Source of the DNA: an uncultured Bacteroidota bacterium
Lineage (GTDB): Bacteria; Bacteroidota; Bacteroidia; Flavobacteriales; Flavobacteriaceae
Assembly: GCA_902560045.1 (NCBI GenBank)
Contig: CACEKJ010000002.1
Span: 26,071-90,070, forward strand
Direction of reading: 5' to 3'
DNA length: 64,000 bases
In this document: in pieces, positions 4,586-43,604 of the stretch
Layout: every line of letters starts with the position of its first letter
Numbering within the stretch: the stretch's first letter is position 1
Translations under genes and position numbers: made by a program
Notes under the pieces: model-generated
What the model was told of the DNA's origin: nothing
The model's input: the letters and a program-made list of their open reading frames with translations, nothing else
Database searches by the model: none

Positions 4586-4985
4586 ATTTTTTGAATTCAT
4601 TATAATCTCTAAAATAATCTTCCTCGTCAAAATAGTCTGAGGCTAATACAGCACATACGGCTCCTGATGAAAAATTATCCATCTCCCTCCAAATACCTTT
4701 AGGGATCAATAGACCTTTGTGAGGTTTGTTGAGCATGATTTTGGTTTTGTTGGTTCCGTCATCAACCAAAACCTCGAAACTTCCACTCAATGGAATCATA
4801 AATTGAATTAGGTTTTTATGGGCATGACCTCCTCTATAGGCATCACTTGGAACATCATATAAATAATAAACTCTTTTGATATCAAAAGGAATTATATTTT
4901 TCTCAACAACTGAAAGCTTACCTCTTCCTTTGGGATCAATAATTTTAGGAATATCTATAATTTTTACATCTTTAATCGTATTCAT
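4572..4985 (-). CDS. FdtA/QdtA/WxcM-like cupin (sugar 3,4-ketoisomerase family)
   Basis: 137 aa; VYYLYDVPSDAYRGGHAHKNLIQFMIPLSGSFEV typical of FdtA-like cupins. Confidence 0.85.
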   Translation of the reverse strand: MNTIKDVKIIDIPKIIDPKGRGKLSVVEKNIIPFDIKRVYYLYDVPSDAYRGGHAHKNLIQFMIPLSGSFEVLVDDGTNKTKIMLNKPHKGLLIPKGIWREMDNFSSGAVCAVLASDYFDEEDYFRDYNEFKKFKNL

Positions 4986-5803: not shown

Positions 5804-5839
5804 TAAAAAATTATATTTGACAGTACTGAGAACAATATA

Positions 5840-6979: not shown

Positions 6980-7881
6980 TTGAACATTTAAAGCCTAATT
7001 TTTTTATTCCAGGAGCGGCAAAATCTGGAACAACTACTCTGCATGATATGCTTAATACCCATCCTGAAATATCTATGTCATCTGTCAAGGAACCTGGTTA
7101 TTGGAAAAATAAAAATTTTAAGGAATTTGGAAACACTGAGATGCACAATTATCAAAATTTATTCGATAATACAAAAAAATTTAAAGGTGAATCTAGTACA
7201 GCGTACATGTACTATGATAGCTTTATAAATAATGTGAAAAATAATTACAAAGAACCTCCAAAGTTTATCTTTATTTTAAGAAATCCTATTGATAGATATT
7301 TTTCTCATGTAAACTGGTTGAAGGGTTTAGGTTTAGAAAAAAATAACCTTGATGAAATAATTAATAATGGGGCAGAATTTAATTTTGAAGAATACGACGA
7401 TTATCCGAAATATTATTATGAGTTTGGCCTATATAACAGATGGATAAATAGATTTTTAGATAATTTTGGAAAGGATAATATTAAAATAATAACCTTCGAA
7501 GAATTATTAAAAAATAAACTATCTACTTTGAACGAATGTTTTGATTTTATTGGAGTTAGTCAAATAAATGAAATTAAAGAAATTGCGTCTAATAAAACAA
7601 GAAAAATAGTTTTTCCAAGTGCATATCATTTTATCAGAAAATCTTCTTCCGGAAAAATGAAATATACCGAATATGTTAAATATTTATTGCCAAAAAAAAG
7701 CAGGTCAGATATAAAATATATTATGAAATTTATAATTGAAAAATGGTTCAAGAAAGAGTTAAAATTTAAAAAGCTAGATGACCATACTCGAGAATATTTA
7801 AGAAGTATCTATTATAAAGATGTCAACGATCTAAAATGTAGTTTAAATTATAACTTTTCTGAGTGGGAAGATTTTAATTAA
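6967..7881 (+). CDS. Sulfotransferase domain protein
   Basis: PAPS loop FFIPGAAKSGTTTLHDML, FIFILRNPIDRYFSH. Confidence 0.85.
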   Translation: MGELIEHLKPNFFIPGAAKSGTTTLHDMLNTHPEISMSSVKEPGYWKNKNFKEFGNTEMHNYQNLFDNTKKFKGESSTAYMYYDSFINNVKNNYKEPPKFIFILRNPIDRYFSHVNWLKGLGLEKNNLDEIINNGAEFNFEEYDDYPKYYYEFGLYNRWINRFLDNFGKDNIKIITFEELLKNKLSTLNECFDFIGVSQINEIKEIASNKTRKIVFPSAYHFIRKSSSGKMKYTEYVKYLLPKKSRSDIKYIMKFIIEKWFKKELKFKKLDDHTREYLRSIYYKDVNDLKCSLNYNFSEWEDFN

Positions 7882-7892
7882 TAATAAAAAAA

Positions 7893-9140
7893 ATGAATTT
7901 TATTAAAACATCGTTTTTATCAGGGTTAAGTACTGCAATAAGTCTTATTGCAAGGCTTATCTCAACGAAAATTGTAGCCGTTTATCTTGGTACAAATGGG
8001 ATGTTTCTTATGGGTCAATTAAAAGATTTTCTAAGGTTAGGTAATACAATAAGTTCATTTGGGATTGAAAATGGAATAATTAAATATACTTCAGAATTTG
8101 AAAAACAGGAAATTGAATTAAAGGGTATTGTTGGCACAAGTTTTAAAATTAACTTTTTTAGTGCTTTAATTGTTTCGGGACTAATTTTAGTTTTTAAAGA
8201 AAAAGTTTCGGATTTTCTTCAAATAAACTTCAATCAAAACTTTTATTTTTTAATCCTCATATGTTCAGTAATATCTGCGTCTATACATACATGTTTTCTG
8301 TCGATTTATAATGGATTAAAAAAAATTGAGCTTTATGTTCTAATAAATATATTTTCAAATATTTTATCAGCAATAGTGATAATTCTTCTTGTTTTAGAGA
8401 TGGAGATAATTGGTGCATTCTATGCCCTAGCATTAAATCAGATTTTATCTCTTTTAATTAATGTTATGTTTTACATCTACTATAGACCTTTTAAAATCAA
8501 GTGGATATTAGAATCTTTTATTACAGAAAATTTAAAAAAATTATCGAAATTTTCTGTTATGGCAATAGCAGGACCAACATGTTTAATTATATCTACTTTT
8601 ATTATTCGCGACCATATATATAATGAGTTTGGATCTGATTATGCCGGGTCGTGGGAAGCAATGTGGAGGATTTCGGCAATTTATTTACTCTTCTTAATAA
8701 CAACATTTAAATTTTATCTGATCCCAACTTTTTCAAAGGTTAACGATGAAAAACTTAAACAGGAAGTGTTTAAGATCTGGAAAGTTACGATTCCGATTAT
8801 AATTATAATAACAATAGGCGTATACTTAACTAAAAATATAATTATTGACATTTTACTTTCAAAAGAATTTGTTTTAATTAATGCAATAATATTTTTTCAC
8901 CTACTTGGGGATGTGATTAAAATTAATTGTTGGGTTCTAGGAAATATTATGATTTCAAAAGCAGACACAAAGAGCTTTGTTTTCTTTCAAATTGAATGGT
9001 CTGCTATATTTATAATATTAAGTTATCTGTTTATTGATATGTATGGCTTTGTTGGGGTTTCAATTTCCTATTTTATAACATACATAATTCACTTTACGCT
9101 CTTAAATCTATACTACAGAAAATTACTTTGGCTTAAATAA
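7893..9140 (+). CDS. O-antigen/polysaccharide flippase (Wzx-like)
   Basis: 415 aa polytopic membrane protein; FLSGLSTAISLIARLISTKIVAVYLGTNGMFLMGQ. Confidence 0.75.
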   Translation: MNFIKTSFLSGLSTAISLIARLISTKIVAVYLGTNGMFLMGQLKDFLRLGNTISSFGIENGIIKYTSEFEKQEIELKGIVGTSFKINFFSALIVSGLILVFKEKVSDFLQINFNQNFYFLILICSVISASIHTCFLSIYNGLKKIELYVLINIFSNILSAIVIILLVLEMEIIGAFYALALNQILSLLINVMFYIYYRPFKIKWILESFITENLKKLSKFSVMAIAGPTCLIISTFIIRDHIYNEFGSDYAGSWEAMWRISAIYLLFLITTFKFYLIPTFSKVNDEKLKQEVFKIWKVTIPIIIIITIGVYLTKNIIIDILLSKEFVLINAIIFFHLLGDVIKINCWVLGNIMISKADTKSFVFFQIEWSAIFIILSYLFIDMYGFVGVSISYFITYIIHFTLLNLYYRKLLWLK

Positions 9141-9141
9141 G

Positions 9142-10113
9142 CTAAATCATCAAATTATTTAATTTTTGAAAATCTGCAGTATTGATTTCATAAAAATTTT
9201 GACTTATTGACCTAGCGCCAAAACCCTCTTTCCAGTATAAGAGTCCACTATTTATCTTTCTTCCTTCTTTTTCATTAGATGTTCCAAAATCAAAAAATTT
9301 ATAATCAGAAAAAGTATCATTGATTAAATTATAAAATAAAAAATCTAATGAGCCCAATATATTTTTATCCTTATTAGATCCAATGTATTGGACATGAATA
9401 ACATTTTTTGTTTGAAAAATAGTTGTTCCCGCAACTAAATTATCCTTAAGATAAACATTAAATTGTCTAATGTTTTTTCCAAAATTGGATTTCAATTGTT
9501 CAATTTCATCTAATGAATGAACAGGTGAAACAGAATGTTTTTTTGATAAAGTGGGTTTTAAAATTTTATTCCAAAATTCTTTGAAATTATCTGTTTCAAC
9601 TATTTTTAAATTATTTTTCACCCCTCTTTTATAACCTTGAACTCTATCTTTTGAAATTTTGATTTTTTTATTCAATTCAATAACAGATATTATATCCTTA
9701 CGATAAATATTACTGTTGGTTATAAATGATAAATAGTCTAGTTCATTAGAAAAATTTGAATTATAAATTGAGGGTATTTCTTTAATAAATAATTTTTTAA
9801 AAGAGTTTTTATTGCAGAACTCTAATAAGCTTCTAAATATATCTAAGAAATCATTTAATTTAATGTTCTCTTTGACAACTAATCCTCCGTAAGTTAATCC
9901 TTTATGAGAATATAAGTTTTTAGCTTCTATATTAGCAGGAAACAATGCAACAAGCTCTAAATCTTTAAAAATTAAAAAGGAAGAATCTTCAAAACGAGAA
10001 GAATGATAATCCATAAAATCTCTTTTGAATAAAAAAGTAGCATTCTTGGACACATCAATAAAACTGTCCCATTGAGATTTATAATTAGATTCATAAGTTT
10101 CAATCGAAACCAT
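9142..10113 (-). CDS. FemAB/GNAT-like acyltransferase
   Basis: 323 aa; HVQYIGSNKDKN..LDFLFYNLIND..YKFFDFGTSNE. Confidence 0.65.
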   Translation of the reverse strand: MVSIETYESNYKSQWDSFIDVSKNATFLFKRDFMDYHSSRFEDSSFLIFKDLELVALFPANIEAKNLYSHKGLTYGGLVVKENIKLNDFLDIFRSLLEFCNKNSFKKLFIKEIPSIYNSNFSNELDYLSFITNSNIYRKDIISVIELNKKIKISKDRVQGYKRGVKNNLKIVETDNFKEFWNKILKPTLSKKHSVSPVHSLDEIEQLKSNFGKNIRQFNVYLKDNLVAGTTIFQTKNVIHVQYIGSNKDKNILGSLDFLFYNLINDTFSDYKFFDFGTSNEKEGRKINSGLLYWKEGFGARSISQNFYEINTADFQKLNNLMI

Positions 10114-10124
10114 TATAATAATTT

Positions 10125-10988
10125 TTATTTATCCTTAACAAAATCCTTCATGATAAAAACATGAGGTAATGTCAAACTTGAAATTATAATAAACACAAAT
10201 AAAATGAGGTTATCACTTGTGAGTAAATCATTATTGAAATGATATAATAAAAAACCAAAAACTAAAGATAATATTGTGAAAGGAAGGGTCTTAAAGTAAA
10301 ATTTGATAAAATTATCACTCTTAAATTCCTTAAACTCTAACATTAACATTGGAAGAGAATGGCAAAACCCAAAGTACAAAGCAAAAGAAGTTAGAAGATC
10401 TGTATGATAGAAAACCATGTATATTATGGTTATTTCAGCATATAAAGGAACTTTTCTTTTGATATTAAAGTTAGTTACGCTTAACATTAAAACAGCAACT
10501 GAGATCAAAAGAAAAAATACGCTCTCAAAATTTGACAAGTCAAGGTTTGAAAACTCTGGTAGGATGTATAGGATTTCTTGTAACTCAATAATGTTATTTA
10601 AAAAAAGAGAAAGTAAAATATTAGCTCCGATGACAAAATTAAGCAGCTTATTGTCTGTGGAATTATATCCTAAAACCTGGGTTTCTCCAAAATGATAACA
10701 TGAAATAAGTAAAAATATTAGTAATCCTAAAAAAGGAGAAATAATCCACAGTATAATATTTATAAGAATAAGAGATAGGTAGACAATATAAAAAATTAAC
10801 TTACTGTTAAATCTTCTTGCCTCGGGATTTATAAAAGCTATGATATGATCCACAGATCCATGAGGGATACCGATCGATAACATGATAATAAGAAAAAGTA
10901 AAATTGAGTAAGAACTCTCTAAGCCAAAAAAAATAATCGATAAGGCAAGAATTAGACCAATCAATTTTGATCTTACTATAATATCCAT
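10125..10988 (-). CDS. blh: Brp/Blh family beta-carotene 15,15'-dioxygenase
   Basis: SIGIPHGSVDHI, CYHFGETQ, YFGFCHSLPML, LPHV motifs; next to proteorhodopsin. Confidence 0.9.
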   Translation of the reverse strand: MDIIVRSKLIGLILALSIIFFGLESSYSILLFLIIMLSIGIPHGSVDHIIAFINPEARRFNSKLIFYIVYLSLILINIILWIISPFLGLLIFLLISCYHFGETQVLGYNSTDNKLLNFVIGANILLSLFLNNIIELQEILYILPEFSNLDLSNFESVFFLLISVAVLMLSVTNFNIKRKVPLYAEITIIYMVFYHTDLLTSFALYFGFCHSLPMLMLEFKEFKSDNFIKFYFKTLPFTILSLVFGFLLYHFNNDLLTSDNLILFVFIIISSLTLPHVFIMKDFVKDK

Positions 10989-11010
10989 GGTTAGTTATTT
11001 ATTCCAATAT

Positions 11011-11043
11011 AAAAAAAAAGGTGAGGAAAATCCTCACCTTTTT
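11011..11043 (-). terminator. Intrinsic terminator downstream of proteorhodopsin
   Basis: AAAAAGGTGAGGA/TCCTCACCTTTTT near-perfect hairpin with flanking A/T runs between PR stop and blh start. Confidence 0.88.
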
Positions 11044-11069
11044 CTTAAAAGTTATTTATTAATCAAAAA

Positions 11070-11798
11070 TTAACTTCTAGCTGCAGACCAAACTGCCATA
11101 CCGAAACCAATTTTGTTAATAGCATCACCAACATTGTATACAACGTTCATATCTAATGCAATATTAGACATTCCTTCATACCATTGTCCAGCGTCAGTTC
11201 CCATTAAATAACCTAATGGATAAATAGCCCATCCTACAAGAACAAACCATTGTAACATTCTACCAGCCGAAGGTATTTTACCAGATGCGCTGTTTAATGC
11301 AGTTCCTACAGCTCCTGTTGGTCCACCAAAAATGGTTAAACAACCAACTTCATAAGCCATGTAGAAGTATGCAAGTGCTGAGGCAGTACCCCACATAGTT
11401 GCAGTTCCACCCATTACTCCAGACTCACCGAAGTAACCAGTAACTAACATTATTACAGATGCCCAGAATAATTTTCTCATTCCAACACCTGTTAAAAGAG
11501 CAAATTCAACAACCATTAATGGTACAGTAAGAATCCAGTCTATGTACCTTAATTCAGTTGGAGATTCTCCAGTAAGAACCCACTGCTCTCTCATGTAGAA
11601 ATAATGCACGGCTGCAATACCAGTAATTAGTGCTGCAACAAGCATTGAATCTTTAAATTTCTTGTCAACTTGACCGTGTTGCATTAAAAACCACACAGTA
11701 GCAGCTAACATTGAAACTGAGCCGATAAAAAATGTAAACCCAGTGAAGTCACCAGGAGCTACAGAAGCGGCGTCAAAAATAAAATTTAACATTTCCAT
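11070..11798 (-). CDS. Proteorhodopsin (proton-pumping, predicted green-absorbing)
   Basis: RYIDWILTVPLMVVEF gives D97/T101/E108 and Met at the 105 tuning position; helix G Lys in DAINKIGFG. Confidence 0.97.
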   Translation of the reverse strand: MEMLNFIFDAASVAPGDFTGFTFFIGSVSMLAATVWFLMQHGQVDKKFKDSMLVAALITGIAAVHYFYMREQWVLTGESPTELRYIDWILTVPLMVVEFALLTGVGMRKLFWASVIMLVTGYFGESGVMGGTATMWGTASALAYFYMAYEVGCLTIFGGPTGAVGTALNSASGKIPSAGRMLQWFVLVGWAIYPLGYLMGTDAGQWYEGMSNIALDMNVVYNVGDAINKIGFGMAVWSAARS

Positions 11799-11828
11799 AA
11801 TTATATAGTGTTTAATTTGTTATACACT

Positions 11829-11836
11829 CAAAATTA
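11829..11836 (-). promoter_or_regulatory. Possible Bacteroidetes -7 box (TAATTTTG) upstream of proteorhodopsin
   Basis: Reverse complement matches TAnnTTTG ~31 bp upstream of start codon; a TTG lies upstream but spacing is shorter than typical. Confidence 0.35.
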
Positions 11837-12148
11837 CACAAAATATATGCCAAAATGTTAAAAATATCTTAAAATATTGAAAATATGGTAAGATAATATT
11901 TCTAAAAATCCTCTTCCAACAGATAGAAATTGAAAAATATCTGATTTATGGTACTTTAATAAATACGCAAAATTTGAGTCTTATTTTTAGTGAAATAGTA
12001 GATAAATCGGGCTTTTTGTTGAAAAATCATCATAATTTTAATTAATTATCAGTGTATAACTTAAGAATTTTAAGATTTTCACATTTTATTAACTAGTTAA
12101 GTGAGGAACATTTAATTTATTTAATGATAAATTTGTAAAAAAGATTAA

Positions 12149-12973
12149 ATGAATATTGATCAAATACCAAATATCAAAAATTTATCTTCTGATAATTTTT
12201 TCCTCATAGCAGGACCTTGTGCTATTGAGAGTGAAGAAATGGCTGTAGAAATAGCTAGTCAAATTATAAGAATTACGGATCGTTTAGAAATTCCCTTAAT
12301 CTTCAAGGGAAGTTTCAAAAAAGCAAATCGTAGTAGACTAGATAGTTTTACCGGGATTGGAGATGAAAAAGCACTCGATATTTTAAAAAAAATAGGTACT
12401 AATTTTAAGATTCCTGTCATTACCGATATTCATTCTGTTGACGATGCGAAGTTAGCCGCTAATTATGTAGATATTCTTCAAATTCCAGCTTTTTTAGTTC
12501 GGCAAACCGATATTCTTGTTGCCGCTGCCAAGACAGGAAAGGTGATAAATTTAAAAAAAGGACAATTTATGAGTCCTGAAAGCATGCAGTTTGCTGTTGG
12601 TAAAATAATTGAATCTGGTAATGAAAAAGTAATGATAACTGATAGAGGAACTATGTTTGGCTATCAAGATTTAATAGTTGATTTTAGAGGAATTCCGATT
12701 ATGAAATCCTATGCAACTACTGTTCTTGATGTGACACATTCATTACAAAAACCCAATCAAACAAGTGGAGTAACTGGTGGATTACCCGAAATGATTGAAA
12801 CAATAGCAAGGGGCGGGATTGTGAATGATATTGACGGTCTATTTATAGAAACACATTTTGATCCAACTCAGGCACTTAGCGACGGAAAAAATATGTTGCC
12901 ATTAAATGATCTTGAGGGCCTTCTGGAAAGATTAGTGAAAATAAGACAAGCAATTGTAAGTTTTAAGAAGTAA
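12149..12973 (+). CDS. kdsA: 3-deoxy-8-phosphooctulonate synthase
   Basis: FLIAGPCAIES, FKGSFKKANRSR, TDRGTMFGYQDLIVDFR, VTHSLQKP. Confidence 0.95.
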   Translation: MNIDQIPNIKNLSSDNFFLIAGPCAIESEEMAVEIASQIIRITDRLEIPLIFKGSFKKANRSRLDSFTGIGDEKALDILKKIGTNFKIPVITDIHSVDDAKLAANYVDILQIPAFLVRQTDILVAAAKTGKVINLKKGQFMSPESMQFAVGKIIESGNEKVMITDRGTMFGYQDLIVDFRGIPIMKSYATTVLDVTHSLQKPNQTSGVTGGLPEMIETIARGGIVNDIDGLFIETHFDPTQALSDGKNMLPLNDLEGLLERLVKIRQAIVSFKK

Positions 12974-12980
12974 CTTCCAT

Positions 12981-14360
12981 TTAAAGTTTGGGTTTTGAAA
13001 CTAGCCCGTATTTATCAATTAAATAGATCAAGGCAGTCATCGTTGCTGCACCTAGCTCAAGCTCTCTTTTATGAATTGTTTCAAAAGTATCATTTTCAGA
13101 GTGATGATGATCAAAATATCTTTGGGAATCTGGTTTGAGACCACTTAATACATTATCAGGGGTTTTCAATGGTCCGATGTCTGCGCCACTACCTCCTAAT
13201 TCAAAAAAGTGAATTAAATAAGGTTTAAATAATTTTTTCCAACTTTGTATTTGGGAAAAATTAGCTTCATCAGAGTCAAAATAAAAACCTCTTGGAGTAA
13301 ATGCACCTGCATCGCTTTCGAGAGCAAAAATGTGATTTTCACCTTTTCTGAAAGCTTCCTCTGCATATTTTTTACCTCCTCTAAGTCCATTTTCCTCATT
13401 CATGAACAAAACAACTCTTATACTTCTTTTAGGAGTTATTCCAGAAATTTTTAATAATCTTAAAACATCCATTGATTGTACACATCCAGCTCCATCATCA
13501 TGAGAGCCATCCCCAATATCCCAGGAATCTAAATGACCTCCTACCAAAACATATTCATCAGGAAATTCAGAGCCAGTGATTTCACCAATTACATTATGCG
13601 ATAATACATCATCCAATTGCTTACAATTTTGTTTGAAATAAAATTTGATATCATTATCCATTTTAAGCATTGAACTTAATAAATCTGCATCTTTTGTACT
13701 TATGGCTGCGGAGGGGATCCTATCCGTTACTGGAATTTCTCCATAGGTCATACTACCTGTGTGTGGCGAATTGTCAATAGCTAAATTCATTGATCTAACA
13801 ATGACAGCAGAAGCTCCGTATTCTATTGCATTAACAGCTCCTTCATATCTTTGATCCACGCAACCACCGTATGCCTTAAACGTATCAATCAGGGTCGCAT
13901 CCATCGGTCTGTTATAAAAAACAATTTTTCCTTGGATTTTATCCCTACCCAATTTTTCAAGCTCTTCAAAACTTTTTACCTCAACTACTTTTGCCTTGAG
14001 CCCTGCAGTAGGAGTTGAGATAGAACCGCCAAGAGCACATATGTTGACTTGAGTAGTTTTTCCAGGTGAAGTTTCTATGTAGGCAAATTCTGGAGCACCC
14101 CTAACCCATTTTGGAACCATTACGGGCTGAAGCCATACTTTATCAAGACCCATTAATTCCATTTCTGACTTAGTCCAGTTAACTGCTCTTTCAGCGTTCA
14201 AAGAGCCAGAGAGTCTACCCCCAATCTGATTGGATAAATAATCTAGCCATTCATAGCTTTTACCATTTGTAAGAGAATTTGTATAAATATCTCTTATCAC
14301 CTTTTCATCAGTTTGGGAATATGTACATATAGAAATTAATAAAATTATAATATACCTCAT
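12981..14360 (-). CDS. M28 family metallopeptidase (PA domain, secreted)
   Basis: GGHLDSWDIGDGSHDDGAGC, NEENGLRGG, signal peptide. Confidence 0.88.
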   Translation of the reverse strand: MRYIIILLISICTYSQTDEKVIRDIYTNSLTNGKSYEWLDYLSNQIGGRLSGSLNAERAVNWTKSEMELMGLDKVWLQPVMVPKWVRGAPEFAYIETSPGKTTQVNICALGGSISTPTAGLKAKVVEVKSFEELEKLGRDKIQGKIVFYNRPMDATLIDTFKAYGGCVDQRYEGAVNAIEYGASAVIVRSMNLAIDNSPHTGSMTYGEIPVTDRIPSAAISTKDADLLSSMLKMDNDIKFYFKQNCKQLDDVLSHNVIGEITGSEFPDEYVLVGGHLDSWDIGDGSHDDGAGCVQSMDVLRLLKISGITPKRSIRVVLFMNEENGLRGGKKYAEEAFRKGENHIFALESDAGAFTPRGFYFDSDEANFSQIQSWKKLFKPYLIHFFELGGSGADIGPLKTPDNVLSGLKPDSQRYFDHHHSENDTFETIHKRELELGAATMTALIYLIDKYGLVSKPKL

Positions 14361-14361
14361 C

Positions 14362-15525
14362 TTATATTTTGATAAAATCTTTTACATTTTTTTCAGAAAT
14401 TTCCTTATCTCCAAGAATAATAAGTCTCTCAATGACATTTCTTAATTCCCTAACATTACCAGACCAATCGTTTTTTTTCATTAAATCAATAGCCTTTTTT
14501 GAAAATTTTCTAACTTCTGAGCCTTGTGCATCAGCTATATTTTTTGAAAAATGATCAATTAATAAGGGAATATCATCTTTTCTAGAATTTAAAGAAGGAA
14601 CATCTATAATAATTACCGCTAAACGATGGTATAAGTCTTCTCTAAATTTTCCTTCCTTAATCTCTTTTTTTAAATCTTTATTTGTAGCTGCTATTACTCT
14701 TACATCAATTTTAATGTCTTTTGCACCTCCAACCTTTTGAATACAATTATCTTGTAACACCCTTAATACTTTAGCTTGAGCTGACAAGCTCATATCTCCG
14801 ATTTCGTCTAAAAATATTGTTCCATTATGAGCTGCCTCAAACTTTCCTATTTTGTCTTTAACCGCTCCAGTAAATGATCCTTTTACATGACCAAATAATT
14901 CGCTTTCTATTAATTCACTAGGAATAGCGGCACAATTAACTTCGATTAGCGGCTGATGCGCTCGCTTACTTAGATTATGAATTGATTTAGCAACTAATTC
15001 TTTTCCAGAACCATTGGGCCCATTAACTAAGATTTTAGCATCAGTTTCGGAAACTTTATCAACAAGATCTTTTATTTGATTTATAGCCTTACTTTTTCCT
15101 ATCATTTCAAAATTTTTGCTAATTTTTTTTCGAAGCAATTTATTTTCAACAACTAATTGTTTTCTGTCTAATGCATTTCTTACTGTAGTTAGTAGTCTGT
15201 TTAAATCTGGAGGTTTAGAAATATAGTCAAACGCACCTTTCTTCATGGAATCAACTGCAAGTTCTAAATCGCCATGACCTGAAATCATTATAATTGGTGT
15301 CTCTGGGGTGTTTTTTTTCGAGAAATCTAACACCTCTATACCGTCAACTTTAGGCATTTTTATATCTGAAATAATTAAATCATAAGACTCTTTTTTAATC
15401 TTATTAATTGCTTCTATTCCGTTTTCTGCCTCATCAATTTGGTGAGACTTATCCTCTTCAGCTAATATTTTGACCAGGACTCTTCTAATAGCTGGTTCAT
15501 CTTCGATAATTAATATTTTTGACAT
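14362..15525 (-). CDS. NtrC-family sigma-54-dependent response regulator
   Basis: Receiver domain + GPNGSGKELVA, GAFTGA (as GSFTGAVKDK), GNVRELRN. Confidence 0.92.
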   Translation of the reverse strand: MSKILIIEDEPAIRRVLVKILAEEDKSHQIDEAENGIEAINKIKKESYDLIISDIKMPKVDGIEVLDFSKKNTPETPIIMISGHGDLELAVDSMKKGAFDYISKPPDLNRLLTTVRNALDRKQLVVENKLLRKKISKNFEMIGKSKAINQIKDLVDKVSETDAKILVNGPNGSGKELVAKSIHNLSKRAHQPLIEVNCAAIPSELIESELFGHVKGSFTGAVKDKIGKFEAAHNGTIFLDEIGDMSLSAQAKVLRVLQDNCIQKVGGAKDIKIDVRVIAATNKDLKKEIKEGKFREDLYHRLAVIIIDVPSLNSRKDDIPLLIDHFSKNIADAQGSEVRKFSKKAIDLMKKNDWSGNVRELRNVIERLIILGDKEISEKNVKDFIKI

Positions 15526-15532
15526 AATTTAA

Positions 15533-16846
15533 TCAGTATTTAAGCCATTTTATTAATTCTTTGTATGATGGCTTTTTTCCATACATTAATATACCTATTC
15601 TATAAATCTTTGCTGCTATCCAAATTATTAAAATAACGGATAAAAATAAAATTGTAATTGAAATTATTTGTTCAAAAATTGGAACTCCATAAGGTATTCT
15701 CATCATCATTACAATGGGAGAAGTTAATGGAATAAAAGAAAAAATTTGAGCAACAATCCCGTTTGGATCTTCTGGAACAGTTAGAATCCCAGCATATAAT
15801 GCAACAATTAAAACAATTGTTATTGGCATAAGAAACTGTTGTGCATCGGTTTGATTATCAACTGCAGCGCCAATAGCAGCAAAAATAGATGAATAAAGAA
15901 AATAGCCACCTAAAAAATAAAACAAAAAGGCTATCAAAATATTGGTGAGAGGTAAGTTAATAAAGGCTGCAATCATTTCTAAAGAATCGGATGAAATCCC
16001 GCTATCTTGAGATGCGCTTAACATAATTGATGCATTACCTGCATTGCTTGGCATTGATGTTATGCCAAATATTGATGTAACTATTGTAGAAAAAACAAAA
16101 AATAAAAATCCCCAAACAATGAATTGAGTAAGTCCTGCAAGGGATGTTCCTATTATTTTCCCTGTCATTAGCTGAAAAGGCTTAACAGATGAAATTACTA
16201 TTTCAACGATTCTATTTGTCTTCTCTTCAATTACACTCATCATTATCATACTTCCATAAGCGAAAATAAATATATATAACAGCATTCCTAAAAACATACC
16301 AAAAATCAGCTTAAGAAAACCGTCAGTTTTTGTTGTTTTTTCACCCTCGAAAGTTTCTTGAAATAAGTTAACATAAACCTTAGAATTGTTTATTTGGTTG
16401 ATATCTAGTCCTTCAATTTTAAAATTTTTGCTTGTCAATATTCTTTCAAGCTGAGTTTCAATGTTATTAATCAAGGTGAATGAAGGAGAGTCTTCTGAAA
16501 TAAAAGAAATAGAGTCTGCTATTGCTTTTGGAGAATCAAGATTTGGTATATGTATAAGACCGTAATCAGATTTTGTTTCAGAAATAATTTTTGCTTCCTC
16601 AAATGAAAAATTTTCTAAAAGGTTATATCTCAAAAATTCTGATGAATTTAAATTTTCATAAACAAATCCAGTTTCATCAACTACAGAAATATTTTTGACT
16701 GTTTCATTATTTAAACTTGACAAATAACCTAGAAAAAAAATTAAACCTACAATAAAAAGAGGAGTCAAAAATGTAGATAAAATAAATGTCTTATTTGTTA
16801 TCTTATTTAAATATTCACGAGTTGTTATAAGAGTAAAATGACCCAT
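15533..16846 (-). CDS. ABC-2 type transporter permease (NatB-like)
   Basis: 437 aa; MVIEEKTNRIVEIVISSVKPFQLMTGKIIG typical of ABC-2 permeases. Confidence 0.85.
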   Translation of the reverse strand: MGHFTLITTREYLNKITNKTFILSTFLTPLFIVGLIFFLGYLSSLNNETVKNISVVDETGFVYENLNSSEFLRYNLLENFSFEEAKIISETKSDYGLIHIPNLDSPKAIADSISFISEDSPSFTLINNIETQLERILTSKNFKIEGLDINQINNSKVYVNLFQETFEGEKTTKTDGFLKLIFGMFLGMLLYIFIFAYGSMIMMSVIEEKTNRIVEIVISSVKPFQLMTGKIIGTSLAGLTQFIVWGFLFFVFSTIVTSIFGITSMPSNAGNASIMLSASQDSGISSDSLEMIAAFINLPLTNILIAFLFYFLGGYFLYSSIFAAIGAAVDNQTDAQQFLMPITIVLIVALYAGILTVPEDPNGIVAQIFSFIPLTSPIVMMMRIPYGVPIFEQIISITILFLSVILIIWIAAKIYRIGILMYGKKPSYKELIKWLKY

Positions 16847-16847
16847 A

Positions 16848-17775
16848 TTAATTATTTTTTACAGAGTTAATGAATATTTCACTTGCACTAGGGATTACTT
16901 CTTTAAAGTGAATAACCTCTCCATTGTCATTTAAAATTTTTAGTAATTCATTTGATTTCTGAGTAGGTTTGAGATTAATATTTAATCTTAAATTATCACC
17001 AAGGGTTTTAAAAGTTGGAGTACTAGTATTGTAAAGTGTGTTTAATTGGTTTTTTAAATGATCAACATTAGATGTATTAACTGCAATTTCAAATGTATTT
17101 GATTTAAATTTTGCCTTTATATTATCTAATTTTCCGTCTAAAATCTTATTTGATTTATTAATTAACGCTATATCTTCACATAATTCTTCAACGGACTCCA
17201 TTCTGTGGGTTGAAAAAATTACAGTGGCACCTTGTTTTCGTAATTCCAAAATTTCATCCTTTATAAGATTTGCATTGATTGGATCAAATCCAGAAAATGG
17301 TTCATCAAAGATCAATAACTTAGGTTTGTGTAAGACGGTAACAATGAACTGAACCTTTTGAGCCATTCCCTTAGAAAGTTCTGTTACTTTTTTATCCCAC
17401 CAATCCGAAATTTCAAATTTTTCAAACCATTTGTTTAATTCAGATTTAGCAACAGATCTGTCTAATCCTTTTAATTGAGCCAAATATATGGCCTGTTCAC
17501 CAATTTTCATTTTAGGATACAAACCCCTTTCTTCAGGTAAGTAGCCTATATTTTTAATATGACTTGGTTTTAATTCGGAGTTATTAAAAAAAAACCTTTC
17601 CAGAATCAGGTTGAGTAATTTGATTAATGATTCTAATTAATGTTGTTTTTCCAGCTCCGTTTGGGCCTAATAGTCCAAAAATTGATCCTTCTGGAATATT
17701 TATAGAAACATCATTTAGGGCTGTAAAATTTCCATAATGTTTGGAAACAGAGTCAATAGTTAGGATATTATTCAT
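16848..17775 (-). pseudogene. ABC transporter ATP-binding protein (NatA-like), reading frame interrupted at a 9-nt homopolymer
   Basis: Walker A half in ORF 17584-17775 and signature/Walker B half in ORF 16848-17522; removing one T of the T9 run (plus-strand A9, 17586-17594) restores ...[36 protein letters not shown]... Confidence 0.8.
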
Positions 17776-17859
17776 CTAAAATTGGTTTCTTTAAATATAG
17801 TATTATTCAACCTAGATTTAGGAGTATGAATAAATATTTAATAAAACTTTAAGAAACAA

Positions 17860-18969
17860 CTATGAAAACATGTCTTTTACCCTGTCAAAAAAAGACTTTT
17901 CTGAACTTTCTGGTTTAGGTTCAAAATGCTCGTTGTTGGTCATTGATTCAAAAAATTGCTTTTGCTTTTTGTCCAAAGTTTTAGGAGTCCAAACATTTAC
18001 ATGAACCAGTAAATCTCCACTACCATATCCATTTATACTTGGGATACCTTTACCTCTCAATCTTAAAATTTTACCAGACTGCATTCCTGATTCTATTTTA
18101 ATTCTGACTTTTCCAGAAACTGTCTCAATTTCTTTGTTAGCACCTAATATAGCATCTGGAATACTTACATATAATTCATAATGTAGATTGTCACCTTCCC
18201 TTTGTAAATTTTTATGAGGAACTTCGTTAATCACAACTAATAAGTCCCCACTAATTCCATTTCCTGGAGCTTCATTTCCCTTACCACTAACCTTTAACTG
18301 CATATCGTCTACGACTCCAGCCGGAATGGGTATTTTAACCGTTTCCTCTTTAGAAATCATTCCATTTTCATCTGCTCCGTTTGGTCTATTATCGATTACC
18401 TGACCTGAGCCAGAACAACTAGGACATGTTGAAGACGTTTGCATTCTTCCAAGAATAGTGTTCGTTACACGAGTAACCTGTCCCTTTCCATTACATTGGG
18501 GACATGTCTTAAAAGTTGCACCGGAAGCTAATACTTTCCTTTTTACTTTTATTTTTTTCTCTACACCATTACAGATTTCATCTAAGGTTAAATTTACACG
18601 AACTCTTAAATTACTTCCCTTTACTACCCGTCTACCTTGTCCCCCTCCAAAGCCTCCAAAGCCTCCAAAAGCACCTCCAAAAATATCTCCAAATTGGCTG
18701 AATATATCATCCATATTCATTCCGCCTCCGAATCCTGCTCCACCACCTTGAAAAGCCTGATGACCAAACTGATCATATCTTGATTTTTTTTCAGGATTGC
18801 TTAGTACGTCATAAGCTTCAGCGGCCTCTTTAAATTTTTCCTCTGCAGCACTATCACCAGGATTTTTATCTGGATGATACTTTATGGCCATTTTTCTGTA
18901 AGCTTTTTTTATTTCTGAAGCAGAAGCACCTTTACTTACACCTAGTATTTTGTAATAATCTTCTTTCAT
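17860..18969 (-). CDS. dnaJ: Chaperone DnaJ
   Basis: J-domain [10 protein letters not shown] region, CPQCNGKG zinc centres. Confidence 0.97.
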
Positions 18970-38056: not shown

Positions 38057-38077
38057 TACTTACTTGATTTTATATAA

Positions 38078-38115: not shown

Positions 38116-38160
38116 TGTGACCTCGGAGGGATTCAAACCCCCAACCTTCTGAGCCGTAAT
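38116..38160 (-). repeat. tRNA-Arg 3'-half fragment (outer attachment site of element 1)
   Basis: 47 bp (38114-38160) identical to 41262-41308; diverges exactly after anticodon-loop core GCCGTAAT. Confidence 0.92.
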
Positions 38161-38290
38161 TAGAAAATCTTCCCTGTAAGTAAAATTTTGAATAAATTAT
38201 CAGATTAAATATTAATCTATTAGTTTGTTTTTTTACAGGTTAAAATAGTTAGAAGGACAAAAAAATTATTCATAAACTTTCTTAAAAAAG

Positions 38291-38312
38291 TGTGTCACCA
38301 TATGTGTCACCA
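38291..38312 (+). repeat. Element 1 left arm repeats (2x TGTGTCACCA, 12-bp period)
   Basis: 38291-38300 and 38303-38312. Confidence 0.85.
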
Positions 38313-38363
38313 AAAAATAATTTTTAATTTATCAAGATATAATTAGATTTATTATATTTAATT

Positions 38364-40655
38364 ATGACTAGAGAAGATTTTTTAGAAAAAATTACAACCA
38401 CTGATAATTTAAGATCTGTCTCAAGAATAAAAAATCAAAAATACAACTTTAAGTCTGTAAGCAACTCTGAAAAAGATGAGTTAATAAATCAAGGATGGGA
38501 AATCGACAGAGAAAATGTTAACTCCGTCAGACTAAAAAAACCCAAATTACATTCGGTAATATTTGAAAATAAAGTTTGGTCAGTATTTCAAAAAATGGGA
38601 TACAGCAGATTAAATATTGACAATACATTTAAAATTCCATATTCAAATAACCAAGATATACCTCCGAGACAAATCGATGTTTTTTGTTTTGATGATGATA
38701 CAGCCATAGTAATTGAATGTAAAAGTTCCGAATCCAGAAGACCCAGACCACTTCAAACAATCATAAATGACTTTGCAAATATTCGAGATGGAATAATAAG
38801 GTATTTAAATAGCATTTTTGAAACCAGAAAAAAAGTTAAATTAATTTTAGCTACTAATAATATAGTTGTTTCTGAAAATGATGTAAATAGAATTAAAGAA
38901 AATAACATCCTGTTATTTACACAAGATGATATCAATTATTACGATCAACTGTCTTCTCATTTAGGAGAGGCTTCAAAATATCAATTATTTGGAAGAATAT
39001 TTTCAGGTCAATCTATACCTTCTTTAAAAAATAAAGTTCCTGCAATAAGAGGTAAAATGGGTGGTCATACTTATTATTCATTTTCAATTCAGCCAGAAAA
39101 ATTACTTAAACTTTCTTACATATTACATAATAATACAACCAGTGAAGAAGTAGTTGGAACTTATCAGAGAATGGTAAATAAAAAAAGAATTTCAGACATT
39201 GGTGCCTTTTTAGATTCAAATGATGGAGGTTCTGGATTTTTTCCTAATTCGATTATTGTGAATTTTGACACCAGTGGAAGAAATTTAGTTTTTGATAAAA
39301 TATCATCCGATCACGACGTTGAAGATTGTTCAGTTGGTGTTCTAAAACTTCCAGATAAATTTAGATCTGCATTTATTATTGACGGACAACATAGACTTTA
39401 TGGGTATTCAAAAAGTGAATGGAAATCAAAACATACAATTCCTGTAGTGGCATTTGAAAATCTTCCTGTTGAAAATCAAGTTGATATGTTTGTAAATATC
39501 AATCACAAACAGAAATCTGTTTCACAAAATTTATTGACAACTATTAAAGCTGAACTACATTGGAACTCGCCAATTTATAATAATGCAATTTTTGCAGTAA
39601 TGGCTAGATTATTAATGGAGTTATCTAAAGATAATTCTAGTCCGCTATATGGACGAATAAAGCTTGGGGAAAACAAAAAATCAGATTTGGTTAATATTAC
39701 GTTAGACTATATTATAAGTTACGGATTCAAAAAAACTAATTTTTTTGCTAAGATTTCCAGAAATAGATTGGTGTCTACTGGTCATTTATGGGTTGATGAT
39801 TATTCAAGAATGCTTATTAAAGCAAAAAAGTTTTTTATTCTTATTTTCAAATATATAAAAGAAAAAAGCGAACAAAACTGGGATTTGGGTAGTTCTGGAG
39901 GAGGTTTTATTTCGATGAATATCGGAATTGCTTCAGTTATTCGATTAGTTGATTCTGTAATTAAATTAGATTCTTTATCAAATAACTCACAAATACAAAC
40001 CAAATCTGCAGAGGACATATTTGATATTTGTAAACCGAAGCTAGAACATCTTTCAAATTATATTAACGGCCTAAGTATTTCAGAGATACAAAATTTCAGA
40101 AGTGCCGGTACAGGTGGTCAAGGAAGGGATAATGTTTATAGAGAATTTCAAAACTATATATATCAAAATGATCCAAATTTTAATCCTGATGGCCTACAAG
40201 AATGGATAAGAAATAATTCAGGTGAATTTAATGATTCTGGTACAGAAATGGTAAGAGACTTAGAGCTGAAAATTTTTGATACAGTAAAATCTAAAATCAT
40301 TGAAAAATATAATTTTGGGGCAGAATGGTTACGTCCTGAGGCTATACCTAGAGGTGTTTTAAGTAAAACCTATGAGATGTATAATGAACAAGGACAAAGA
40401 GAGCCACAAGAAAATTTCTTAGACCTAAGCAGCTATAAATCTATTATAGAAAAAGGTGATAACTGGGCAAGTTGTTTTAAAGAGATTTTTACAGACCCAA
40501 GGATTGTCGGAAGCGCAAATAAGGAAAGATCACTTGAATGGATGCTTAAACTAAATGAAATTAGAAGAAAAACTGCTCATCCCACCAGAGCACCAATAAC
40601 TCCTGATGAAAACGATTTCTTAATTTTCTTAAAAAGCTGGTTAATTGATGAGTGA
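38364..40655 (+). CDS. Multidomain PD-(D/E)xK + DGQHR (DndB/DpdB-like) + HEPN-like protein
   Basis: N-term RQIDVF-x-ECK (D105...E118xK120); FIIDGQHRLYGYSK at 39381; C-term LNEIRRKTAHP (Rx4H) at ~40563-40580. Confidence 0.85.
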   Translation: MTREDFLEKITTTDNLRSVSRIKNQKYNFKSVSNSEKDELINQGWEIDRENVNSVRLKKPKLHSVIFENKVWSVFQKMGYSRLNIDNTFKIPYSNNQDIPPRQIDVFCFDDDTAIVIECKSSESRRPRPLQTIINDFANIRDGIIRYLNSIFETRKKVKLILATNNIVVSENDVNRIKENNILLFTQDDINYYDQLSSHLGEASKYQLFGRIFSGQSIPSLKNKVPAIRGKMGGHTYYSFSIQPEKLLKLSYILHNNTTSEEVVGTYQRMVNKKRISDIGAFLDSNDGGSGFFPNSIIVNFDTSGRNLVFDKISSDHDVEDCSVGVLKLPDKFRSAFIIDGQHRLYGYSKSEWKSKHTIPVVAFENLPVENQVDMFVNINHKQKSVSQNLLTTIKAELHWNSPIYNNAIFAVMARLLMELSKDNSSPLYGRIKLGENKKSDLVNITLDYIISYGFKKTNFFAKISRNRLVSTGHLWVDDYSRMLIKAKKFFILIFKYIKEKSEQNWDLGSSGGGFISMNIGIASVIRLVDSVIKLDSLSNNSQIQTKSAEDIFDICKPKLEHLSNYINGLSISEIQNFRSAGTGGQGRDNVYREFQNYIYQNDPNFNPDGLQEWIRNNSGEFNDSGTEMVRDLELKIFDTVKSKIIEKYNFGAEWLRPEAIPRGVLSKTYEMYNEQGQREPQENFLDLSSYKSIIEKGDNWASCFKEIFTDPRIVGSANKERSLEWMLKLNEIRRKTAHPTRAPITPDENDFLIFLKSWLIDE

Positions 40656-41103
40656 CATTATAATATTTGATCTTGATGGAACAATTGCATTAATTGATAA
40701 AAGAAGAGAACTAAGTACTAAGAAAGATTATAAAATTGATTGGGATATTTTTTTTGATCCAAAAAATATTAAACTTGACAAACCTAATTACCCTGTAATT
40801 GAATTATTAAAGCTATTAAAATCAAAAGGATTTAAAATTTTTATTCTTAGTGGTAGATTAAATACAACAAAAGAAGCAACCTTAGAATGGTTGCACAAAA
40901 ATGATATTGAATTTGACCAAATAAAAATGAGAAAAAATACTATTAAAGGTAAATATATTTCTGATGTTGAACTAAAGGAAAAATGGATGACGGAAATTGG
41001 AAAAGAAAATATTTTTTGTGTATTTGACGATAGAAATGCTCTAGTTGAAATGTGGAGAAGAAATGGACTTACCTGCTTTCAAGTAGCAGATGGAAATTTT
41101 TAG
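40648..41103 (+). CDS. HAD-superfamily phosphatase resembling polynucleotide kinase 3'-phosphatase domain
   Basis: IIFDLDGTIALIDKR, FILSGRLNTTKEATLEWL, FCVFDDRNALVEMWRRNGLTCFQVADG; ATG overlaps upstream stop by 8 bp. Confidence 0.8.
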   Translation: MSDIIIFDLDGTIALIDKRRELSTKKDYKIDWDIFFDPKNIKLDKPNYPVIELLKLLKSKGFKIFILSGRLNTTKEATLEWLHKNDIEFDQIKMRKNTIKGKYISDVELKEKWMTEIGKENIFCVFDDRNALVEMWRRNGLTCFQVADGNF

Positions 41104-41144: not shown

Positions 41145-41224
41145 TGTGTCACCAAATGTGTCACCAATTAGGAAAATAAATTTGAAAATTAAAAAAACAA
41201 AAAATAGACTAATTTGTGTCACCA
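41145..41224 (+). repeat. Element 1 right arm repeats (3x TGTGTCACCA)
   Basis: 41145-41154, 41157-41166 (12-bp period), 41215-41224. Confidence 0.85.
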
Positions 41225-41230
41225 AAAAAG

Positions 41231-41259
41231 AAAGACCCACTACAAAAAGCGAGTCTTTA
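41231..41259 (-). terminator. Element-supplied tRNA-Arg terminator copy
   Basis: AAAGACCCACT...AGCGAGTCTTT imperfect hairpin, diverged copy of 38078-38109. Confidence 0.6.
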
Positions 41260-41265
41260 CTGATG

Positions 41266-41339
41266 TGACCTCGGAGGGATTCAAACCCCCAACCTTCTGA
41301 GCCGTAATCAGATGCACTATTCAGTTATGCTACGAGGCC
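41266..41339 (-). tRNA. tRNA-Arg(ACG), intact
   Basis: GGCCTCG acceptor paired with CGAGGTC; anticodon arm TCTGA-TTACGGC-TCAGA (ACG); T-arm GGGGG-TTTGAAT-CCCTC. Confidence 0.95.
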
Positions 41340-41384
41340 GTTATATTCTTAAAATTGCTACTTTGTAAATCTCTTAAAAAATAC

Positions 41385-41408
41385 GTGGGTACAACGTGGG
41401 GTACAACG
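41385..41408 (+). repeat. Element 2 left arm repeats (GTGGGTACAACGTGGGGTACAACG)
   Basis: GGGTACAACG at 41387 and 41399. Confidence 0.85.
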
Positions 41409-41525
41409 ACTATATTTCTTAGGCTCTTTTACAGAGTGCAACGTGTCTGCAAATATATCTTTATTTTTTTTAAACTTAAAAGAGAATATCCCTATGAGTT
41501 AAAAAAAATTCATAGGTTTATTGTA

Positions 41526-42251
41526 ATGAAATTTGCATTACATAATGGTGAGAGAAAAGAAGCTGAAATTAACTTAAAAGGTGCTGTATGCCAAGTATGT
41601 AAGGCAGAAGTAATTGCGAAATGTGGTGATGTGAAAATTCATCATTGGGCTCACAAAAGTAAAAGAAAATGTGACCATTGGTGGGAAAATGAAACTAAAT
41701 GGCATAGAGACTGGAAAAATCAGTTTTCAAAAGATTGGCAAGAAGTTGTACATTCTTCAGAAACCGGAGAGCGACATATTGCAGATATAAAAACACCAAA
41801 GGGTTTAGTAGTAGAATTTCAGCACTCCCCTATTAAACCAGAAGAAATACTTGCAAGAAATACTTTTTATAAAAACATAATATGGATAGTCGATGGTAAA
41901 AGGAGAAAATATGATGAAAAAAAGTTTAAAGAAGTAATAGACCCTACATCAGGAGCGTGGGAGTTTTGGTATTATTCACCATTATTAAGGGATTGGTCTC
42001 GTATTCAAAAACCTGTATTTTTTGATTTTGGAGGGCCAAAATTATACGTGGTGTTTGAGGGTGAGATTAAAGATTTTGATAAAGTGGATTTTATTGAAGC
42101 TGTAAAAATGGGTGGTAATGGTAAAACATTGTTACATCTATTAAAAGAGAAAACTAAAATAGCTAAGATTAAAGATGAATACGTTAGGAATTCCATCAAA
42201 GAAAAGAAAGAAAAAAGAACATTTGCTAGTGTAAGAAAAAGAGGATATTGA
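41526..42251 (+). CDS. CoiA-like nuclease (competence protein CoiA-like family)
   Basis: MKFALHNGERKEAE start; VCQVCKAEV..HHWAHKS Zn-binding-like motif; HIADIKTPKGLVVEFQHS (D...ExQ). Start trimmed from ORF-track 41355. Confidence 0.8.
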   Translation: MKFALHNGERKEAEINLKGAVCQVCKAEVIAKCGDVKIHHWAHKSKRKCDHWWENETKWHRDWKNQFSKDWQEVVHSSETGERHIADIKTPKGLVVEFQHSPIKPEEILARNTFYKNIIWIVDGKRRKYDEKKFKEVIDPTSGAWEFWYYSPLLRDWSRIQKPVFFDFGGPKLYVVFEGEIKDFDKVDFIEAVKMGGNGKTLLHLLKEKTKIAKIKDEYVRNSIKEKKEKRTFASVRKRGY

Positions 42252-42280
42252 TGTTAAGGATTTAAATGAAGAAGATATGC

Positions 42281-43444
42281 TTATGATTTAGACGGGTTAA
42301 AGTCGAAAGGATGTTCTTTGTATTCATTAGTTCTTTTTCCGTCTTTGTATTTGACTATTTTTTTAGGTTTGCCATCGTCAAAAGTTTCAATAATCTCATA
42401 ACCATTAAAAATCTTCTTTTCTTCACCAATATATGTCAGCTCATCAATAATTGTTAGGGCTTCTTTTGGAAAAGCATATTGTTCATTATTATTTTTAACA
42501 TTGCTAAGAGTTTTTTCTATAGATTTTTTTGTTTCCCAAAATTTCTCAAATTCTTTTTCAGATTTCCCTGTAGATGCTATATACTGTTCTTTAAAATTCT
42601 CTTTTATCAATCCGTCTATTAATACTGTGTCATCTAATTTTCCTGAAAAAAGCCTTAGAGTTGATGCATATTTTTCAAACATAAATCTATTAATACAAAT
42701 CAAATTTGGCCTATAGTTACTTTCATTTTTATTTGCGGGAAGCGTTACAAACTCAATTCTTTCCCCCCTTTTTATCTTTTCCAATCTTTCCTCATTTTTT
42801 ATCTTCGCCAATCTATCCTCAATAAGTTTCTTTTTAGTGTAATATTTAATTATTTGCTCAACGTTTAAAGAAACACCTTGTTCTGAAAACCATTTTTGAT
42901 TAAATATATCATAGTTTTTATTTGACCTACCATTTATTGATTCAATTGTACCCACCTTAATTGTATTACTACCATTAATAGAGAGATAATGGTCTTTCGT
43001 TAAATACCCCGACAAACTAAAATCATCTTCATAGGCGGCGCTTATTATAATTCCGGTTGAAGATTCTTTAACAATTCTCGAAACACCATCGTCACAATCT
43101 ACTACTTTTTCTTTGTGTAATTTTGCATACTTAGGGTCAACTTTAAGACGCTCTATATGTTTTTGATGTTTTAGTTTTTCTTCTTTTTTTATTGCTTTTA
43201 TTTTTTCTCTTTTTTTATTTTCTTTTTTTTCTACCTCTCCTTCATAATAAACAAGAAATGCAATAAGAAGCAATATTGAACCTATGATATAAAATCCATT
43301 GTACATTAAGTAAGCAGTTAGAATTATAAAACCTGAAAAAATAATCAACCAATATACCAATCTCTTTTTCCTTGTTCTATATTCTTCTATTTTTTTCTTT
43401 TCTTCTTTGGTCTTCTCCCATTTCTCAATGTCCTTGTTTTTCAT
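42281..43444 (-). CDS. Uncharacterised protein with two N-terminal TM helices
   Basis: 387 aa intact ORF, charged coiled N-terminus, two TM segments, no recognised domain. Confidence 0.6.
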   Translation of the reverse strand: MKNKDIEKWEKTKEEKKKIEEYRTRKKRLVYWLIIFSGFIILTAYLMYNGFYIIGSILLLIAFLVYYEGEVEKKENKKREKIKAIKKEEKLKHQKHIERLKVDPKYAKLHKEKVVDCDDGVSRIVKESSTGIIISAAYEDDFSLSGYLTKDHYLSINGSNTIKVGTIESINGRSNKNYDIFNQKWFSEQGVSLNVEQIIKYYTKKKLIEDRLAKIKNEERLEKIKRGERIEFVTLPANKNESNYRPNLICINRFMFEKYASTLRLFSGKLDDTVLIDGLIKENFKEQYIASTGKSEKEFEKFWETKKSIEKTLSNVKNNNEQYAFPKEALTIIDELTYIGEEKKIFNGYEIIETFDDGKPKKIVKYKDGKRTNEYKEHPFDFNPSKS

Positions 43445-43472
43445 ACCTACAATTTACAATTATTTTAAATGT

Positions 43473-43494
43473 GGGTACAACCAAGGGTACAACG
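43473..43494 (+). repeat. Element 2 right arm repeats (2x GGGTACAAC, 12-bp period)
   Basis: GGGTACAACC 43473-43482, GGGTACAACG 43485-43494. Confidence 0.85.
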
Positions 43495-43565
43495 AAAATC
43501 AGTTTATCTGATAAATACTCTGTAAAGTTGATATTGTAAAAAAACCACTAATCTGTAGGTTGGGT

Positions 43566-43604
43566 GCCGTAATCAGATGCACTATTCAGTTATGCTACGA
43601 GGCC
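43566..43604 (-). repeat. tRNA-Arg 5'-half fragment (outer attachment site of element 2)
   Basis: 39-bp identity to 41301-41339; continues into non-tRNA sequence at the anticodon loop. Confidence 0.92.

Follow-up and report, generated by a model that had tools for sequence, protein, structure and literature searches.

The window analyzed here, a 64,000-nucleotide stretch of contig CACEKJ010000002.1 from a marine flavobacterium whose own genome assembly is 64% complete, encodes a 763-amino-acid (aa) protein with three domains as read from its sequence: a PD-(D/E)XK-type N-terminus, a ParB-like DGQHR core and a Swt1-type HEPN C-terminus. With moderate confidence, we regard this protein as a restriction-type defence enzyme, a type IV-like, nucleoside triphosphate (NTP)-gated DNase/RNase factor carried on a swappable defence cassette. 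The ParB/Srx-like DGQHR domain would bind DNA and NTP. When foreign DNA is met, it would license two effectors: the N-terminal PD-(D/E)XK DNase, and the C-terminal HEPN RNase as the second line of a presumably antiviral response. In most relatives the host DNA would be shielded by a co-encoded adenine methyltransferase, as in a restriction-modification (R-M) system. The branch of the window protein has no such methyltransferase and probably acts against DNA that is modified or in another way foreign, as a type IV system does. A phage-acquired phosphatase, encoded by the next gene, probably trims the 3′-phosphate or 2′,3′-cyclic phosphate ends produced by HEPN cutting, and the gene pair may move on a small element that lacks an integrase and sits at a tRNA-Arg gene.

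The gene for the 763-aa protein (nt 38364–40655, plus strand) was assigned by open reading frame (ORF) call and family models. The gene for the 151-aa HAD phosphatase of the PNKP 3′-phosphatase type (nt 40648–41103, plus strand) was assigned by HAD_PNKP, PDB entries 4xrp and 1ltq, and phage relatives. It starts with an ATG at nt 40648, with an in-frame TTG at nt 40645, and the two ORFs run in the same direction with 8 bp in common. A preliminary description of this DNA had reported the 763-aa ORF, the overlap and the PNKP-type phosphatase, all of which are found at the claimed positions in the ORF list, and the 8-bp overlap agrees with the close coupling of the two genes that it proposed.

Domains of the 763-aa protein

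The central domain (residues ~225–542; nt 39036–39989, plus strand) is recognized by three models. TIGR03187 (DGQHR) spans residues 227–532 with an E value of 5.9e-44 and 150.9 bits against a cut-off of 58.85, which places the protein in this family. The DndB and DpdB models match with E values of 2.7e-15 and 4.5e-22, the DpdB score of 75 lying below the equivalog cut-off of 300. The DGQHR motif occupies residues 340–344 (nt 39381–39395). The N-terminal PD-(D/E)XK-like region (residues ~60–200, boundaries approximate; nt 38541–38963, plus strand) is identified from weak Hjc, Card1, NERD and HSDR_N_2 matches in many homologues. Its motif is complete in the window protein, with D105 at nt 38676 and E118-C119-K120 at nt 38715–38723. 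The C-terminal Swt1-type HEPN region (residues ~638–763; nt 40275–40652, plus strand) is identified from HEPN_Swt1 matches in homologues and from motif conservation, and carries R734-x4-H739 at nt 40563–40580.

Conservation was assessed in 61 full-length homologues with 28–48% identity to the 763-aa protein. DGQHR, QR268–269 and F376xxxN380 are present without exception. Among the nuclease residues, C119 is kept in 61, D105 in 57, E118 in 51 and K120 in 48 homologues, and the triad is complete in 44. R734 and H739 of the HEPN motif are each kept in 50, with the pair intact in 50. Only one homologue has lost both effector sites. Hjc matches 28 of these proteins, Card1 15 and NERD 6, all being PD-(D/E)XK families. 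HEPN_Swt1 matches 29 at the C-terminus (best E value 1.9e-5). With these matches and its own Rx4-6H motif, we assign the window protein to the Swt1-like HEPN group. In a sister protein from Pedobacter helvus (L013), HEPN_Swt1 matches at 638–751 and Hjc at 105–140. Searching the PDB with a profile of the 61-row alignment returned designed helical proteins only. The three-domain architecture of the preliminary description is upheld by the domain matches in homologues and by the motif conservation, with the motifs at the positions it gave, and an origin of these motifs by chance is ruled out by their conservation across the 61 homologues.

The same QR, DGQHR and FxxxN motifs characterize the central domain of the DndB/DpdB/DGQHR family (TIGR03187, PF14072). 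GmrS and the DGQHR domains have in common a ParB/Srx fold and the QR, DGQ[HQ]R and FxxxN motifs (PMC4619093). DndB and DpdB are single-domain proteins of ~350 aa from phosphorothioate and deazaguanine systems, whereas the 763-aa protein adds a fused nuclease and HEPN domain and no dnd genes were found with it. A DndB-like regulator exerting NTP-dependent transcriptional control, and not a restriction enzyme, would be very unlikely. DndB and DpdB are the best-characterized relatives, and DndB has been described as a regulator (PMC4507180). However, no dnd or dpd genes surround the locus, two additional nuclease-type domains are present, the methyltransferase pairing of the family described below is constant, and solitary members exist. 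The preliminary description had noted that dnd and dpd genes are missing nearby. For dnd this now extends to the flavobacterium's own genome, in the assembled 64% of which the DndC and DndD models have no match, so that a Dnd component is ruled out; for dpd, which was not searched genome-wide, it stands for the neighbourhood.

The family and its methyltransferase partner

The conserved partner of the three-domain nuclease is a methyltransferase. A tblastn scan of 84,980 species gave at least 390 relatives of the 763-aa query, of which the best 80 of 390, each aligned over most of the query, were kept; the others perhaps share the DGQHR domain alone in many cases. Full-length homologues occur in Bacteroidota, Bacillota, Actinomycetota, Chloroflexota, archaea and alphaproteobacterial plasmids. 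The search of viral contigs gave no relative of the whole protein, and phage matches as well as most plasmid matches are restricted to its DGQHR region.

In the neighbourhood survey of 85 family loci, the usual partner is METHYLTRANSFERASE, that is, an adjacent DNA adenine methyltransferase, found in 72–73 of them. A D12-class N6-adenine DNA methyltransferase is among the nearest genes at 67 loci, and at 61 it directly precedes the nuclease gene, both being on one strand, mostly at a distance of −4 to +15 bp. At five further loci the methyltransferase is of another kind and bears a DPPY motif. L057 also has a D12 gene, which was missed in automatic gene picking and comes on top of the 67. Among the 12 loci left, three (L016, L017 and L066) end at contig edges, and at one (L034) a D12-type gene lies at a distance of 4 kb. 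The other eight, without a methyltransferase, are the window, L010, L011, L013, L014, L008, L009 and L015.

A methyltransferase adjoins the nuclease in 72–73 of the 85 loci, from which we infer an R-M system, so far unnamed, whose restriction subunit is unusual. The two-gene layout, with D12 just upstream in most relatives, is that of type II R-M systems with a D12-class (Dam/DpnM-like) methyltransferase. The restriction subunit differs in having a ParB core and two effectors, and in the window the methyltransferase is missing. Because of this absence, the partner had been overlooked in the preliminary description, which put forward the nuclease and phosphatase genes as a candidate defence operon. 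A conserved pairing of the two is not supported by the survey: the phosphatase occurs at 3 of the 85 loci, and two of these (L048 and L068) have another arrangement, which rules out a conserved nuclease-phosphatase pair. It is replaced by the restriction reading at the level of the family.

Part of this architecture has been tabulated before. A ParB domain fused to a Swt1-like HEPN was listed for Saro_3948 of Novosphingobium aromaticivorans in Table 1 of the 2013 HEPN survey (Anantharaman et al. 2013, PMC3710099). The homologue on plasmid pNL1 (L008), which covers 98% of the query at 29% identity, is probably Saro_3948, since it comes from the same strain. The tabulated protein is the same ParB-like and Swt1-like HEPN fusion as the 763-aa protein, but the entry names no PD-(D/E)XK N-terminus, methyltransferase pairing, phosphatase or mobile element. 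The preliminary description did not recognize the exact combination as a named system; its ParB-HEPN half is anticipated by this entry. For the methyltransferase pairing, the methyltransferase-less branch, the phosphatase and the cassette, no description was found in the open-access literature, although this is weak evidence of novelty as subscription journals and preprints lie mostly outside it. What is exposed is a widespread two-gene system, not found described as such: an adenine methyltransferase and a ParB-core nuclease of three domains.

Two groups of loci depart from the simple layout. The L008, L009 and L015 loci (nt 10353–18259, 4320–14708 and 1716–6790, respectively) have genes for a radical SAM protein and for a GHKL-type ATPase near the nuclease gene in place of a methyltransferase. 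L008 and L009 additionally encode a PIN-like protein together with a short DGQHR protein; a DNA-modification system of an unknown type on plasmids is possible. Nine Bacillota loci (L040, L047, L052, L053, L056, L058, L059, L061 and L086) have five-gene operons in which the D12 methyltransferase and the family nuclease are accompanied by a DEAD-type helicase (~1135 aa), a zinc-ribbon protein (~640 aa), possibly DrmB-like, and a NERD-helicase. The layout of these operons is like that of DISARM.

A branch without methyltransferase

In the maximum-likelihood tree, the window protein groups with L010, L011, L013 and L014 with an SH-aLRT (Shimodaira–Hasegawa-like approximate likelihood-ratio test) support of 99; the tree was made by a quick method, and the order inside this five-member branch is left open. 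All five members are without an adjacent methyltransferase, so the cognate partner expected next to an R-M nuclease is missing at the window locus. Searches for a D12 methyltransferase gene found none across the entire genomes of L010 (Flavobacterium paronense) and L011 (Cognataquiflexum), nor in the flavobacterium's own genome in its 64% complete assembly. A restriction subunit that is active without a cognate methylase suggests another trigger, for instance modified DNA. Of the two traits of type IV systems, the first, the lack of a methyltransferase, is seen at the window locus and in the sister genomes L010 and L011; the second, cleavage of modified DNA alone, is putative here. GmrSD, a type IV enzyme, likewise joins a ParB/Srx NTPase-type domain and a nuclease in one polypeptide with no methyltransferase. 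It differs in having HNH and DGQQR where the 763-aa protein has PD-(D/E)XK plus HEPN and DGQHR. For the HEPN part, HEPN domains fused to restriction nucleases have been proposed as back-up suicide RNases (PMC3710099). The branch should reveal what the ParB core senses without methylation.

Several observations weigh against the overall reading as a type IV-like restriction enzyme with DNase and RNase effectors. The genomes of L013 and L014 do carry a D12 methyltransferase, away from the nuclease locus, and the own genome is 64% complete. The window protein itself scores under the Pfam thresholds for the nuclease and HEPN domains, which are therefore assigned through homologues and the alignment. 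The nuclease triad is degraded in 17 and the HEPN motif in 11 of the 61 relatives, and therefore either activity may be dispensable. Among the genomes searched, no other species couples this branch with the phosphatase. The first two of these points, together with the methyltransferase pairing of the family overall, would also suit a conventional restriction subunit of an R-M system, the methyltransferase gene having been lost or lying at another place in the genome; another host methylase would then give protection, and the phosphatase would be a passenger. We consider this unlikely, as the adjacent methyltransferase is absent from all five branch members, D12 genes are altogether absent from the complete-sized genomes of L010 and L011, and the active-site motifs of the window protein are intact.

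In L010 (nt 6091–13056), by our reading of the sequences, the two topoisomerase IV subunit genes lie directly on either side of the nuclease gene, all three being codirectional; for a solitary restriction gene this is a strange position. In L013 (nt 7992–15015), the nuclease gene adjoins an Mrr_cat endonuclease gene, and genes with a possible resemblance to dndC, dndD and dndE are on the opposite strand; model matches were checked for Mrr_cat and for the dndC-like gene (PAPS-reductase).

The phosphatase

The 151-aa protein matches HAD_PNKP (PF25109) with an E value of 9.6e-28 and 97.5 bits against a cut-off of 27.6, and thus belongs to this family. It can be aligned with the PDB structures of Pnkp1 (4xrp) and T4 Pnkp (1ltq), and its D8, D10, D127 and D128 lie at the positions of T4 Pnkp aspartates 165, 167, 277 and 278, which we take to be catalytic. 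The likeness to the polynucleotide 3′-phosphatase domain claimed in the preliminary description is thereby confirmed. The nearest relatives are stand-alone phosphatases of marine viral contigs (54–59% identity) and one encoded in the genome of a relative on a contig that looks phage-like (56% identity); the kinase-fused versions of ~300 aa form a separate, higher-scoring group within the order.

The three family loci with the phosphatase are the window, L048 (Cryobacterium) and L068 (Brevibacterium). In the latter two, the operon order is HAD, D12 methyltransferase, nuclease, the phosphatase lying upstream of the methyltransferase and being the sole HAD_PNKP gene of each genome. The base rate is ~1 HAD_PNKP gene per actinobacterial genome in the five genomes checked. 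By our own estimate, ~0.02 adjacent cases are expected by chance in ~80 neighbouring genes, and two were seen. Since two such cases are unlikely by chance, repeated recruitment of the phosphatase to family loci is probable.

PD-(D/E)XK DNases as a rule leave 3′-OH ends. Metal-independent ribotoxins, in turn, mostly leave 2′,3′-cyclic phosphates (PMC4411300). A 3′-phosphatase therefore fits better with the HEPN RNase as partner than with the PD-(D/E)XK DNase. The same chemistry would serve an antidote or RNA-repair partner that heals host RNA ends cut by a leaky HEPN, in a toxin-antitoxin-like manner comparable to T4 Pnkp against PrrC. The translational coupling through the 8-bp overlap speaks for such a role, yet the element has no kinase or ligase, so that repair would require host enzymes, and the pairing is rare; we judge this role improbable. 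PrrC/EcoprrI with Pnkp-type RNA repair is alike in placing a second-line HEPN RNase behind restriction and in its PNKP-type 3′-phosphatase. In the present case, however, the HEPN is fused to the restriction protein and there is no ABC ATPase.

Alternatively, the phosphatase may come from a captured phage gene and work apart from the nuclease, on nucleotides or DNA ends of phage or host; its adjacency would then be incidental to cassette assembly. The 54–59% identity to marine phage phosphatases and the finding of the nuclease-phosphatase pair in a single species of those whose genomes were searched would be in keeping with this, but the 8-bp overlap and the independent co-location in two actinobacterial operons, each with the sole HAD_PNKP gene of its genome, argue against it, and we hold it to be doubtful. 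If the phosphatase acts with the HEPN RNase, as we prefer, its effect could be either to heal the cut RNA or to sabotage its repair; as a more speculative case of the latter, it might lock the cut ends so that RtcB-type repair is deprived of its 2′,3′-cyclic-phosphate substrates.

Small elements at tRNA-Arg

The 763-aa gene and the phosphatase gene are the entire cargo of a 3.1-kb element (element 1), a mobile element that the preliminary description did not contain. Its right end carries an intact tRNA-Arg (acg) gene at nt 41265–41339 (minus strand; ARAGORN), which forms the junction with a second element. At its left end lies the att duplicate, a 3′-part copy of the tRNA-Arg (nt 38117–38164, minus strand; 97.9% to tRNA positions 1–48). 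The similarity on this side reaches nt 38076, as an 89% repeat of nt 41224–41312. Arm-type sites are found inside both ends. On the left (nt 38291–38313, plus strand) they are paired direct repeats of TGTGTCACC with a spacing of 12 bp, GTGTCACC being at nt 38292 and 38304. On the right (nt 41145–41224, plus strand) they are paired TGTGTCACC and one single copy, with GTGTCACC at nt 41146, 41158 and 41216. The TGTGTCACC repeats have no copies in the 64 kb beyond both ends of element 1.

The tRNA-Arg site is empty in two congeners (G005 and G006). With its att duplicates, the empty site in relatives and no integrase inside, element 1 has the features of a CIME-like element; its two genes only and defined ends rule out a prophage remnant. 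The anatomy recalls CIME-type elements and tycheposons, which we take to be att-flanked cargo at a tRNA with no integrase of their own. The elements here differ in being only 2–3 kb long with one or two genes and in having paired subterminal repeats.

In congener G003 (L116, nt 6246–8363), an element at the same position has TGTGTCACG repeats in the same layout and carries a GmrSD type IV gene. The same tRNA-Arg has a trypsin-domain gene flanked by GTGCCTAAC pairs in G016 (L122, nt 7015–9080) and a PQQ-repeat protein gene in G019 (L121, nt 6643–8691), while in G013 (L129, nt 1–1679) a tyrosine-recombinase fragment adjoins the tRNA copy. The site hosts a family of minimal elements that differ in their repeat words. 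As no integrase is encoded in any complete small element at this site, the small elements are presumably mobilized in trans. Bare defence genes, the 763-aa gene and GmrSD, appear to swap at one tRNA on minimal integrase-less elements. A still broader proposal is that a single NTPase core of the ParB type controls a DNase as well as an RNase, that a phage-derived 3′-phosphatase processes or locks the HEPN-cut RNA ends, and that cassettes swap at one tRNA gene, which would make up a new class of stand-alone defence enzyme; as a whole this is speculative and seems unlikely.

Element 2 (nt 41340–43604), which flanks this tRNA-Arg opposite element 1, likewise has no integrase and possesses its own repeat pairs and tRNA copy. 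It carries a CoiA-like (competence/nuclease-type) gene (nt 41355–42251, plus strand) and a gene of unknown function (nt 42281–43444, minus strand). The GGTACAAC repeat pairs are at nt 41388/41400 and 43474/43486, and a 5′-part copy of the tRNA-Arg is at nt 43566–43604.
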